A stretch of DNA of 64,000 nucleotides from Gemmatimonadota bacterium. GTDB lineage: Bacteria; Gemmatimonadota; Gemmatimonadetes; Gemmatimonadales; Gemmatimonadaceae. The notes below the pieces were generated by a model that did no database searches, was not told where the DNA came from, and saw only the letters and a program-made list of their open reading frames with translations. Below are positions 7,003 to 11,398 of the stretch, piece by piece. The translations under genes and the position numbers were made by a program. The stretch covers positions 124,001 through 188,000 of the forward strand of contig BJHH01000004.1 in assembly GCA_014192065.1 (NCBI GenBank), written 5' to 3'. How positions within the stretch are numbered: the first letter of the stretch is position 1; every line of letters begins with the position of its first letter.

Positions 7003-7269
7003 ATGCCGCGCCGCACGATCGTGATTGATGGAGCCTCGTGGGACGTGCTTCCCTCCGGACATGTGACGCAGTACGACGCCGACGAGTTCGGTGTCCACTT
7101 CACGCGCGGTTCAGGCGATTCGCGGGAGTTGCGCGTCACGCGCTACCGGCCGGGTCGGACGCGCGCACGCGAGCAGTCGCTCGCCGAGTGCAGTGAATCC
7201 GAGTTGCGCGAACTGTTCGACCGCTCCCAGTCGAGCGAGATGTCGCCTGAGGGCGGTTACACGACGTGA
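7003..7269 (+). CDS. Hypothetical protein, 88 residues
   Basis: Small basic protein starting MPRRTIVIDGASWDVLPSG, which reads like a beta-rich domain, with a C-terminal helical part rich in Glu and Arg. I recognise no family. The ATG lies two bases after the previous stop. The stop overlaps the GTG start of the PHP gene (GTGA), placing it firmly in the packed operon between the dehydrogenase E2 and the PHP phosphoesterase. Confidence 0.65.
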   Translation: MPRRTIVIDGASWDVLPSGHVTQYDADEFGVHFTRGSGDSRELRVTRYRPGRTRAREQSLAECSESELRELFDRSQSSEMSPEGGYTT

Positions 7270-8123
7270 GTGATCCCGGTGCGGTCGCTGCCGAGCGCGG
7301 GCACATCGATCTTCACGCCCACACCACCGCGTCAGACGGTACTGCGACGCCTGCGCAGTTCGTCGCGGCGGCCGTTGCGGCGAAACTGAGTGCCGTCGCG
7401 GTCACCGATCACGACACCGTCGCATCGGTGGAAGAAGTCACCCGTCTGGCCGCTGCGGAGGGCATCCGCGTGGTGGCTGGCGTCGAGCTCTCGGTACACG
7501 ATGATCTCGATCGCGAAGTCCATCTGCTCGGACTGCACATCGAAAACCTCGCTTTGATGGAGCAGACGCTGATCGGGTTGCGCGATGCGCGCCGGATCCG
7601 GGCGGTGGGCATTGTCGAAAAGCTCAACACGCTCGGTGTGCCGCTCCCATTCGACGATGTGCTGGCGCAGTCGGACGGCGCGGCGATCGGCCGGCCACAC
7701 GTCGCGCGTGCGTTGATGCAGGCGGGGCACGTCTCCAGTCTGCAGGAAGCGTTTGACCGCTGGCTTGGTGGCGGCAAGCCCGCCTACGTCGAGAAGCAGC
7801 GTCTTCGGTTTGCTGACGGCATCGCGTTGGTGCATCGCACGGGGGGCATCGCCGTGTATGCGCATCCGGGCGCAGAAGCGACCCGCGAACGGATCGAACC
7901 GCTTGTGGCCATAGGGCTCGACGGTGTCGAAGTGCGTCATCCGAGTCACGGGTCCGAAGCCATCAAGCGCATCAAGGCGCTCGTGGCGCATTTCGGGCTC
8001 GTGCCGAGCGGTGGATCGGACTGGCACGGCGCCGCCGGAGGCTCAAGGGTCCTCGGGTGCATGCAGGTGAACCCCGAGTGGCTCGACTTGCAGCTCGCAC
8101 GCGTGGCGGCGCAGGCGGCATGA
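7266..8123 (+). CDS. PHP-domain phosphoesterase (RNase AM / nucleoside bisphosphate phosphatase type)
   Basis: Metal-dependent phosphoesterase of the TrpH/YciV group, which removes phosphate from nucleoside 3',5'-bisphosphates or trims RNA 5' ends. The four PHP metal motifs are visible: HIDLHAHTTASDGT at residues 13-26, VTDHDT, the GVELS stretch, and a terminal GSDWHG. IGRPHVARAL in the insertion is typical of this subgroup. The 285-residue length is normal. The GTG start overlaps the preceding stop and the stop overlaps the SDR start (ATGA). Exact substrate is inferred from the family, not proven here. Confidence 0.88.
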   Translation: MSDPGAVAAERGHIDLHAHTTASDGTATPAQFVAAAVAAKLSAVAVTDHDTVASVEEVTRLAAAEGIRVVAGVELSVHDDLDREVHLLGLHIENLALMEQTLIGLRDARRIRAVGIVEKLNTLGVPLPFDDVLAQSDGAAIGRPHVARALMQAGHVSSLQEAFDRWLGGGKPAYVEKQRLRFADGIALVHRTGGIAVYAHPGAEATRERIEPLVAIGLDGVEVRHPSHGSEAIKRIKALVAHFGLVPSGGSDWHGAAGGSRVLGCMQVNPEWLDLQLARVAAQAA

Positions 8124-8878
8124 CCCGACGTGCGGTGCGCGCGGAGGGTACGCTGCGTGGCCGCGTCGCGCTGGTGACCGGTGCAGGGACGCGGATCGGC
8201 CGCGCTATCGCGGTCGGGCTTGGGTCGGATGGAGCCCGTGTCGCGGTACACTACAACGGGTCGGCGGCCGGCGCTCGCGAGACCGTCCGCTTGATCAAGG
8301 AGACCGGGGGTGAGGCGCGGGCCTTTCGCGCCAACCTGACCCGAGTCGAGGCACCGACCAAGCTCATCGAGCAAGTGCTCGAACACTTCGGCCGACTGGA
8401 CCTGTTGGTCAATTCGGCGGCGTCGATTAAGCGAACACCGCTGACGAAAGTGCGCGAACGCGACTGGGACGAGGTGTTCGCGCTCAATCTGCGCGCGCCG
8501 TTTTTCTGCGCTGTGGCGGCGGCGCGCGCCATGGGACGACGCGGGGGCGCGATTGTCAATATCTCGGACCACATGGGGTTCGAATCGTGGCCCGACTACA
8601 TCCCACATGGCGTGAGTAAAGCTGGCGTGGTTGCGTTGACGCATGCGCTGGCGGCCGCGTTGGCTCCGCGCGTGCGCGTCAATGCGGTGGCGCCGGGCTT
8701 CGTGCTCGCGCCCGAAGGCTACCCGGCGCGGGCGCAGCAGGCGTTCGCGCGTGCCACGCCGCTGCGCCGCCTCGGAAGCCCGGCCGACGTCGTCGGGGCC
8801 GTACGCTATCTGGCCACCGCGGAGTTCGTGACGGGAGAAACACTGTTCGTGGATGGCGGACGGCGCGGGGCGCGCTGA
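8120..8878 (+). CDS. Short-chain dehydrogenase, pteridine reductase (FolM/PTR1)-like, His in place of catalytic Tyr
   Basis: NADPH-binding Rossmann oxidoreductase of 252 residues. TGAGTRIG at 20-27 has the arginine typical of pteridine reductases such as PTR1 and FolM. Asp150 (NISD) replaces the ordinary SDR serine, also a PTR1/FolM feature, and lies exactly 13 residues before the catalytic position as in those enzymes. That position is His163 rather than Tyr, followed by Lys167, giving Asp-His-Lys instead of Asp-Tyr-Lys. LAPRVRVNAVAPG also resembles the FolM group. It overlaps the PHP gene by ATGA. Reduction of a pterin is plausible but the altered residue makes function uncertain. Confidence 0.85.
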   Translation: MTRRAVRAEGTLRGRVALVTGAGTRIGRAIAVGLGSDGARVAVHYNGSAAGARETVRLIKETGGEARAFRANLTRVEAPTKLIEQVLEHFGRLDLLVNSAASIKRTPLTKVRERDWDEVFALNLRAPFFCAVAAARAMGRRGGAIVNISDHMGFESWPDYIPHGVSKAGVVALTHALAAALAPRVRVNAVAPGFVLAPEGYPARAQQAFARATPLRRLGSPADVVGAVRYLATAEFVTGETLFVDGGRRGAR

Positions 8879-8881
8879 CCG

Positions 8882-9670
8882 TTGGCTGACGCCGTCGACG
8901 AGCGCGACATACTGGAGCCACGCCGTGACTACGGTACGATCGTCGTCGTGGGCGGAGGGTGCTACGGCTCGCAGTATGTGCGGCAGCTGCGCCGGGCGCG
9001 CGTTGCAGGCAAGACCACTTGGAGCCATCTCATCGTCGTCGATCGCGACGCGCACTGCCTGCATGTCCAGAACGTGGCGGCGGATCCGCGGGGCGTCATT
9101 CACCTCAGTGGCGCAGGTGATTCGTGGGCCGCGATCGATTTCGTTGAGGCAGAGTGGGCCAGCTTTTTCGATGATTGGCTCGGCGAAGCACAGGCCGCGC
9201 CGGCGAACCATCATGCCGATGCGATCGTGCCGTCGCCGCTGATGCCGCATCTGCTGTTTGACTGGTTGGTCACGCGCGCCCGCGCCCGCGGGCCCGGCGA
9301 AGAAATTGCGGTCGAGGTCCCGGGCGAACTCCCCAATGTGCCATGGCAGAAGGCGGGAATGGGTGGCACACGCTATGCCAGTTATGCCACCTGGATCTGC
9401 CCGATCAACTGCATCGAACCGAAGAAGTGCCCGCACACCGGCGGGCCGCGAGATTGGAGTTTTCACGAATCGTTGACGACGGGTGCCGGTCGTGCGGCCG
9501 TGCTTCGGGTCACGCATCGGCACTTCGGTGTCGGAATGATCGACCTGTCGGACGTGCTTGCTGCCGATGCGTGGATTGCCGACATCTTGCCGGCGCGCGG
9601 TGTGGCGAGGATCGCGACGGCGAGTCATTGTCACGCGGCCATCGGTGGAATCGCCATGCGGGGCCCGTAG
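8882..9670 (+). CDS. Unrecognised Rossmann-type protein with conserved-looking cysteine cluster
   Basis: The 262-residue product opens with a nucleotide-binding-like loop (IVVVGGGCYGS at 20-30) and a following acidic end of the second strand (IVVDRD at 51-56), as in NAD- or FAD-binding folds. Cys173, Cys177 and Cys183 form C-x3-C-x5-C in WICPINCIEPKKCPHTGGP, which looks like a metal or iron-sulfur site. No named family is recognised. The only start that leaves the fold intact is TTG three bases after the SDR stop. Close packing with the SDR and PHP genes suggests shared metabolism. Confidence 0.75.
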   Translation: MADAVDERDILEPRRDYGTIVVVGGGCYGSQYVRQLRRARVAGKTTWSHLIVVDRDAHCLHVQNVAADPRGVIHLSGAGDSWAAIDFVEAEWASFFDDWLGEAQAAPANHHADAIVPSPLMPHLLFDWLVTRARARGPGEEIAVEVPGELPNVPWQKAGMGGTRYASYATWICPINCIEPKKCPHTGGPRDWSFHESLTTGAGRAAVLRVTHRHFGVGMIDLSDVLAADAWIADILPARGVARIATASHCHAAIGGIAMRGP

Positions 9671-9752: not shown

Positions 9753-10748
9753 GTGGCCACACACGAATTTGACGTCGTAACCATCGGCGCGGGCCCAGCA
9801 GGCCTGTGTGCCGGCATGTACGTGGGTCGCGCACTGCTCAAGGGCGTCGTCCTCGAGCAAGGACTTCCCGGCGGCGAGCTGCTTAACACCGAGGTGATCG
9901 AGGATTACATCGGGTTCGAGCACATCCTCGGCTACGATCTCGCCGAGAAGTTCCACGCGCACGCCAATAAATTCGGCGCCGATGTCCGCACATACCAACG
10001 CGTCGAGAAGGTGCGAAAAATTGCCGATGGCACCTTCGAGACGCTCATGGAGAATGGCGACGTCTTCACATCACCGACGGTGATCGTGACCGCCGGCGGC
10101 ACGCCGATAAAGCTCGAGGTTCCCGGCGAAATCGAGTACGCCGGCAAGGGAGTCTCTTACTGCGCTATTTGTGATGGTGCGTTCTTCAAAGACCACACGA
10201 TTCTGGTGGTCGGCGGTGGCGATGCCGCATGCGAGGAGGCCGACTTCCTCACTCGCTACGCCGCCAAGGTGTATCTCGTCCATCGCCGGCACGAGTTCCG
10301 CGCGTCGAAGATCGTCCAGCAGCGGCTCTTCAAGAATCCGAAGATCGAGGTCATCTGGGACACCGTCGTCGACGAAATCGGTGGCCAGGACGGCCTGATG
10401 ACGCACGCAAAGATCCGGAATCTCGAGTCGGGTGAGGCGCGTGAGCTGCAGGCGACGGGCATCTTCATCTTCATCGGCTTCCGGCCGAACACCGGCGTGA
10501 TCGAGGGGCACATTGAGCACGACGCAAGCGGCTATCTGATCACCGACGCCAACATGGAAACGTCGATTCGCGGACTCTTCGCCGCTGGTGACGTGCGCGC
10601 GCAGCTGACTCGTCAGGTGACCACCGCCGTTGGCGATGCCACCACAGCCGCGATTGCCGTCGAAAAATTCCTGACCGCGCGCAAGAACGGAAACCCGGCG
10701 CCCGCGCCCATGCCGATGCTCGAGCGCGGCGGCGGCGGCGGCGCCTGA
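9753..10748 (+). CDS. trxB: Thioredoxin reductase
   Basis: FAD- and NADPH-dependent flavoprotein that reduces thioredoxin. It has the FAD loop GAGPAGL at 12-18, the redox-active disulfide Cys137-Ala-Ile-Cys140 followed by DG, the NADPH loop GGGDAACEE, and the C-terminal FAD motif FAAGDVR. Length is 331 residues, slightly longer than usual because of a C-terminal tail rich in Pro, Met and Gly (about 20 residues ending GGGGGA). The GTG start gives a normal ATHEFDVV beginning. It follows the preceding gene after 82 bases, so it may have its own promoter. Confidence 0.95.
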   Translation: MATHEFDVVTIGAGPAGLCAGMYVGRALLKGVVLEQGLPGGELLNTEVIEDYIGFEHILGYDLAEKFHAHANKFGADVRTYQRVEKVRKIADGTFETLMENGDVFTSPTVIVTAGGTPIKLEVPGEIEYAGKGVSYCAICDGAFFKDHTILVVGGGDAACEEADFLTRYAAKVYLVHRRHEFRASKIVQQRLFKNPKIEVIWDTVVDEIGGQDGLMTHAKIRNLESGEARELQATGIFIFIGFRPNTGVIEGHIEHDASGYLITDANMETSIRGLFAAGDVRAQLTRQVTTAVGDATTAAIAVEKFLTARKNGNPAPAPMPMLERGGGGGA

Positions 10749-10777
10749 GCGGCGGATACTGGCCTGTGGCCGGCGCC

Positions 10778-11398
10778 ATGATCGTCAAACGCGTCACAGT
10801 CGGACCGTTTGAGGAAAACTGCTACCTGCTCGCCGAGGCTTCCGGTGCGGCGGCGGTCATCGTTGATCCGGGCGATGAAGGCGACCGGATCGTGGCGATG
10901 GCGGCGGAGAACGGTTGCACGCCGTCCGCTGTCTGGCTGACGCACGCGCATCTCGATCATATCGGTGCGGTTTCTGCGGTTCGAAGAGCGTGGCCAGGCA
11001 TCCCCGTCACGCTGCACCCAGATGATCTCGTCGTTTATGCCTACGGTGCGATGGCCGCCGAGAAGTACGGCCTGCCGTGGGAACAGCCCGAACCCCCTGA
11101 GCGGCGTTTTGCCGAAGGTAACGTCCTCTCCATCGGGTCACTCCGCTTCGAGGTGTGGCATCTTCCCGGCCATGCGCCGGGTCACGTCGCGTTCATCGGC
11201 GAAGGCCTGATGATCGGCGGTGACTGCCTGTTCAAGGGGTCGGTCGGTCGCACGGACCTGCCGCTCTGCGATCCGGCGGCGTTCTCGAGGAGCCTCCGCA
11301 GAATTCTCACGTTGCCGGACGACACGGTGGTCTATCCAGGTCACGGGTCTCCGACGACCATTGGTCGCGAACGGGCGTCAAATCCGTTTCTTGCGTAA
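10778..11398 (+). CDS. MBL-fold metallo-hydrolase (glyoxalase II-like)
   Basis: Cytosolic metal-dependent hydrolase. The metal motif THAHLDHIG gives His56, His58, Asp60 and His61; further ligands are in LPGHAPGH, GGDCLFKGSVGR and YPGHG. The 206-residue size and GRTDLP segment match the short glyoxalase II-like group (YcbL type) rather than full hydroxyacylglutathione hydrolases. An upstream GTG would add four residues; the ATG giving MIVKRVTVGPFEENC was chosen because family members start there. Nearby trxB suggests thiol chemistry, but that link is only positional. Confidence 0.88.
   Translation: MIVKRVTVGPFEENCYLLAEASGAAAVIVDPGDEGDRIVAMAAENGCTPSAVWLTHAHLDHIGAVSAVRRAWPGIPVTLHPDDLVVYAYGAMAAEKYGLPWEQPEPPERRFAEGNVLSIGSLRFEVWHLPGHAPGHVAFIGEGLMIGGDCLFKGSVGRTDLPLCDPAAFSRSLRRILTLPDDTVVYPGHGSPTTIGRERASNPFLA

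Follow-up and report, generated by a model that had tools for sequence, protein, structure and literature searches.

Among SDRs, pteridine reductases are marked by the motif TGX3RXG (not TGX3GXG), which is common to PTR1, Escherichia coli FolM, and similar bacterial proteins (PMC1971073). In PTR1, the arginine of this motif touches the pyrophosphate of NADP (PMC1618733). PTR1 works in two steps. In the first, the nicotinamide is held in place by Lys198, and a proton that Asp181 draws from solvent is handed by Tyr194 to N8 of the substrate; in the second, on the other face, the hydride comes from NADPH and the proton from an activated water molecule, as in DHFR (PMC8996148, PMC1618733). Oxidised biopterin is not a substrate of E. 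coli FolM, which does reduce dihydrobiopterin (PMC1971073). Bacteria that have ThyX and lack FolA still need some DHFR activity, and PMC1971073, with reference to 'Life without dihydrofolate reductase FolA', states that in many of them the responsible gene had still to be found. One known answer to missing FolA is DHFR2, the Helicobacter-type flavin-dependent dihydropteroate reductase (PMC1971073), but this is an unrelated flavoprotein fused to DHPS and not an SDR.

The window analysed here is a stretch of 64,000 nucleotides from a Gemmatimonadota genome of 2.45 Mb. It contains an SDR gene whose product has histidine at the position of the catalytic tyrosine; the features of the locus are listed in Table 1. 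The ATG of the SDR gene overlaps the TGA stop codon of the PHP gene (ATGA, 8120–8123), and this overlap is consistent with co-transcription of the two. The conserved neighbourhood reads, in order, E2, two small ORFs, PHP, SDR, the cysteine-cluster protein, TrxB, and MBL. The preliminary description noted an operon that also encodes a PHP phosphoesterase and a cysteine-cluster protein; this operon is real and conserved in the family, but it gives no pointer to the substrate. The minus strand of 8120–8878 is also open, as is common in DNA of 65% G+C, and is unsupported as a gene.

Table 1 Features of the SDR locus (positions in the window).
Feature	Position	Strand	Basis
PHP-domain phosphoesterase; nearest model 3',5'-nucleoside bisphosphate phosphatase / RNase RNM type	7266..8123	+	Pfam, NCBIfam; synteny kept; 4-base overlap with SDR start
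SDR gene, D-H-K pteridine-reductase-like, 252 aa	8120..8878	+	Single open frame on translation; Pfam adh_short_C2 3.8e-50; NCBIfam best NF006598
TGX3RXG motif, TGAGTRIG, codons 20–27; R25 on PTR1 Arg17	8177..8200	+	Translation, alignment; motif described in PMC1971073, PMC1618733
Asp150, GAC (PTR1 Asp181)	8567..8569	+	Invariant in family alignment
His163, CAT, at position of PTR1 catalytic Tyr194	8606..8608	+	Sequence and column tallies
Lys167, AAA (PTR1 Lys198)	8618..8620	+	Nearly invariant
Uncharacterised protein, CPxxCxEPxxCP motif, directly downstream of SDR	8882..9670	+	No Pfam, NCBIfam or PDB-sequence match
Thioredoxin-reductase-like flavoprotein (trxB), next in conserved neighbourhood	9753..10748	+	TIGR01292 341 bits, cut-off 343; synteny
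MBL-fold hydrolase (glyoxalase II-like), last of conserved neighbourhood	10766..11398	+	Pfam, NCBIfam, synteny

The protein encoded directly 3' of the SDR (about 250 residues) has a Rossmann-like start (VVVGGGCYGSYYVRQL), the invariant CPxxCxEPxxCP, and a conserved SHCH. Its gene keeps this place in many Gemmatimonadaceae and some f2 genomes (for example, L009:5768-6574 and L018:5683-6522). Besides the sequence searches of Table 1, Foldseek with the predicted fold gave no match below E 0.001, and the protein is possibly a metal or Fe-S binder. At six other loci of families f2 and f3 (L073, L074, L076, L077, L079, and L104), the D-H-K SDR has a canonical S-Y-K SDR immediately upstream, in a tandem arrangement.

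The spacing of the three key residues is D-x12-H-x3-K, as first described. In the alignment with Leishmania major PTR1 (identical to PDB 1e92_A), Asp150, His163, and Lys167 fall exactly on Asp181, Tyr194, and Lys198. Arg25, Asn123, and Gly193 fall on Arg17, Asn147, and Gly225, and Tyr160 on Tyr191. The protein thus shares with the PTR1 enzymes of Leishmania and Trypanosoma (PDB 1e92, 1e7w, and 2x9g) the SDR fold, the TGX3RXG motif, and the Asp and Lys of the triad; as known from sequence, it differs in His163, in Ile for Phe113, in Ala for Ser111 (mostly Ala in the relatives as well), and in lacking the long PTR1 insertion. It resembles FolM (alternative dihydrofolate reductase 1; PDB 5tgd and 5bt9) in size and in the motif, and the ten best PDB matches to the SDR family profile include the FolM structure 5tgd. 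The best of 220 matching NCBIfam models is the pteridine reductase model NF006598 (PRK09135), with 219.5 bits against a cut-off of 288. The PTR1/FolM-like subgroup proposed earlier, with Tyr changed to His, is therefore borne out by Asp, Lys, the motif, and this best model; because the tyrosine is missing and the curated cut-off is not reached, the protein is, by its anatomy, a variant filed beside that family and not inside it.

FabG (3-oxoacyl-ACP reductase) shares the fold, and the best-matching structures, 37–42% identical to the window SDR, are FabG-like. This resemblance, together with the PHP, E2, TrxB, and MBL genes nearby, which are not pterin genes, favors an active SDR that acts on an unrelated carbonyl or imine, with His163 as the general acid replacing Tyr. 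We consider such a role improbable: classical SDRs of the FabG kind have Ser-Tyr-Lys and TGX3GXG, whereas this protein has D-H-K and TGX3RXG, with the motif and the Asp invariant in the family, and the neighbors and distribution of its relatives (see below) point elsewhere. A distinct S-Y-K SDR of the FabG kind (L002) is encoded in the window genome as well. An AlphaFold model (mean pLDDT 82.8) matches classical SDRs generally, without telling FabG and PTR1 apart; PTR1 is not among the 50 structural matches listed for this model, which carries no weight either way. A tblastn search of plasmids with the SDR found only generic SDRs of <42% identity.

All close orthologues found by a search of genome contigs (60–73% identity) have His in the Tyr194 column, with invariant Asp and Lys, and the column is also invariant in 10 Gemmatimonadota loci and in every Gemmatimonadaceae locus read. 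Across 83 Gemmatimonadota loci (identity ≥41%, some duplicate genomes included), His occurs in 78 and Tyr in 5 (D-H-K 77, D-H-R 1, D-Y-K 5), and the Tyr loci belong to the distant families f7, f8, and f9. The preliminary description had considered that sister species might have Tyr or that the codon might be misread. The sister species all have His, Tyr being found only in more distant relatives. Although His (CAT) and Tyr (TAT) are one base apart, a sequencing error or single-strain oddity is of negligible probability, since His stands at this column in independent assemblies from many genera. The same conservation rules out a pseudogene or decayed gene.

A broader set of 110 Asp-type relatives was drawn from Gemmatimonadota, a phylum titled Chloroflexi, and a few others. 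The column holds His in 75, Tyr in 35, and no other residue, and TGX3RXG is present in all 110. PTR1 Arg17, Asp181, and Gly225 are kept in every bacterial row of both types (75 His-type, 34 Tyr-type), as are Lys198 and Asn147 with one exception each; the catalytic Lys is present in 74 of the 75 His-type rows. At one locus beside FolB and FolK (L103:2995-3765), His is combined with Arg at the Lys position of YxxxK (D-H-R). The column of Phe113, the pterin-stacking aromatic, is more variable among the His-type rows (Met 43, Phe 29, Trp 2, Ile 1), the window protein having the Ile. On a tree of the 110 rows with four S-Y-K outgroup rows, parsimony needs at least four changes in the Tyr/His column, yet a single His clade is not rejected (p-AU 0.42), and repeated independent switching is not claimed. 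His at the Tyr194 column is, as read from these sequences, an old and stable state, and the gene represents a D-H-K variant of the pteridine-reductase SDRs that extends across the phylum Gemmatimonadota. Within the literature collection searched, nothing relevant was found on SDRs with a natural Tyr-to-His replacement.

The distribution of the gene is complementary to that of folA. An SDR match at E ≤ 1e-40, a class in which the column was read in only part of the matches, is present in 168 of 200 Gemmatimonadota genomes. A FolA-type DHFR (PF00186) was not found in the window genome or in most Gemmatimonadota. Among the 181 genomes tested, a strong match (E < 1e-30) occurs in 17, comprising 15 of the 32 SDR-negative genomes versus 2 of the 149 SDR-positive ones (G013 and G020; Fisher p = 2e-11, from genome counts without species-tree correction). 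The same holds in family f2 counted by genus (10/14 without the SDR versus 2/13 with it, p = 0.006). The SDR is thus present where FolA is absent, as expected of an enzyme that replaces it. In the Chloroflexi-titled phylum, DHFR is nearly absent regardless of the SDR (0/40 and a weak 1/40 in the genomes with and without it), so the association gives no test there.

The thymidylate synthases follow this pattern. The window genome has ThyX and no ThyA. Of the 48 SDR-positive genomes tested, 43 have ThyX and 2 have ThyA; the latter compares with 16 of 32 SDR-negative genomes, where ThyA adjoins DHFR. A strong DHFR was found in none of the 58 ThyX genomes. Fifteen ThyX-positive, DHFR-negative genomes have no SDR match at E ≤ 1e-40, and therefore something else must serve there; some of them have a Tyr-type SDR, as at L214 and L216, where it stands beside FolB-FolK. 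In two genomes of family f8 (G097, contig C19; G177, contig C5), a single long open frame contains two ThyX (PF02511) matches, which suggests tandem or duplicated ThyX domains.

No folate genes adjoin the SDR at the window locus, which gives no folate clue; such neighbors are found in the relatives. In the Chloroflexi-titled phylum, His-type SDRs belong to a folE-SDR-folB-folK cluster (L205/L173) or lie two genes from FolD (L201/L202), and in Gemmatimonadota FolB and FolK directly follow the SDR at L103. The preliminary description had left room for an enzyme inactive on pterins or acting on something else. This is not supported, given these neighbors, a column limited to His and Tyr, and the conservation of the rest of the site. 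Separately, the Tyr-type SDRs L206, L207, L211, and L212 (phylum of G200) adjoin genes that, judged by sequence and not by Pfam, encode MoaC or MoeA for the synthesis of molybdopterin, which suggests a pterin link for the D-Y-K branch too.

The main rival explanation is that the SDR reduces an unconjugated pterin, such as 7,8-dihydrobiopterin or dihydromonapterin, like PTR1, FolM, or dihydromonapterin reductase, and that folate reduction is minor. The window genome carries a cluster of a PTPS-like protein (PF01242), GTP cyclohydrolase I (FolE), and an S-Y-K SDR (G000:C1, approximately 324.1–326.1 kb; L006:424-2220), which looks like a route to tetrahydropterin, and it has no HPPK by PF01288, so de novo folate synthesis is not evident there. 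Moreover, Tyr-type relatives of family f10 stand beside FolB and FolK, the context behind the prediction of a pterin, not folate, role for FolM (PMC1971073). The distribution of the SDR, however, tracks DHFR and ThyX and not the PF00351 aromatic amino acid hydroxylases (14/48 SDR-positive versus 7/32 SDR-negative genomes, p = 0.61), none of which was found in the window genome. We therefore regard the unconjugated-pterin role as unlikely, though a more serious contender than an unrelated substrate; regeneration of the hydroxylase cofactor as the driver is rejected for lack of association. The absence of folA, the ThyX pattern, the folate neighbors of the His-type relatives, and the PF00351 result together argue for a folate/pterin role.

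Here, we propose a substrate, a direction, and a proton route based on PTR1. Arg25 of the TGX3RXG motif would hold the pyrophosphate of NADPH, and Lys167 and Asn123 would position the nicotinamide ribose. The pterin would stack between the nicotinamide and residue 103, which is Ile in this protein but Met, Phe, or Trp in the majority of relatives. Hydride would pass from NADPH to C6 and a proton from an ordered water molecule to N5, the route described in the literature for DHFR and for step two of PTR1. In partnership with Asp150, His163 may still serve as a weak acid or retain water in the site. Since Tyr194 of PTR1 donates its proton (to N8) only in the first step, from oxidised pterin to 7,8-dihydropterin, the change to His need not harm the reduction of dihydrofolate. 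The loss of the phenol should thus weigh most heavily on the reduction of oxidised substrates and least on that of 7,8-dihydrofolate. That no residue but His and Tyr occurs in the column suggests a histidine that continues to carry or relay a proton, or else maintains the hydrogen bond with Asp. A catalytically dead protein, kept for pterin or NADPH binding or for regulation, would account for the missing canonical proton donor, and mutations of the PTR1 triad residues cost much activity (PMC8996148). It is nevertheless very unlikely, because conservation across a phylum extends to the cofactor motif and to Asp, Lys, and Asn, and because the column is never Phe or Ala, as expected where the residue must bond or carry protons.

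Thus, the SDR probably uses NADPH to reduce 7,8-dihydropterins, with 7,8-dihydrofolate as the likeliest substrate; it would act in the manner of FolM and PTR1 and stand in for the absent FolA in a ThyX-dependent bacterium. Counting against this dihydrofolate reductase role are the non-folate neighbors at the window locus, Ala and Ile at PTR1 Ser111 and Phe113, the missing HPPK, the 15 ThyX genomes with neither DHFR nor the SDR, the two genomes with both, and the cost of the PTR1 triad mutations. More tentatively, the D-H-K branch may be the DHFR of ThyX-dependent, FolA-less Gemmatimonadota and of some members of the second phylum; the change of the N8-donating Tyr to His would then have turned a two-step pteridine reductase into a dihydro-to-tetrahydro specialist. 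E. coli FolM coexists with folA (PMC1971073), whereas the D-H-K SDR occurs mostly in folA-less genomes. Gemmatimonadota without FolA should need a DHFR, and this SDR is a strong candidate for it. Conserved, and distributed across one phylum in a pattern complementary to folA, it is a concrete candidate for the gene sought in ThyX bacteria that lack FolA, and a histidine kept over a phylum offers a natural test of the role of the SDR catalytic tyrosine in pterin reduction.
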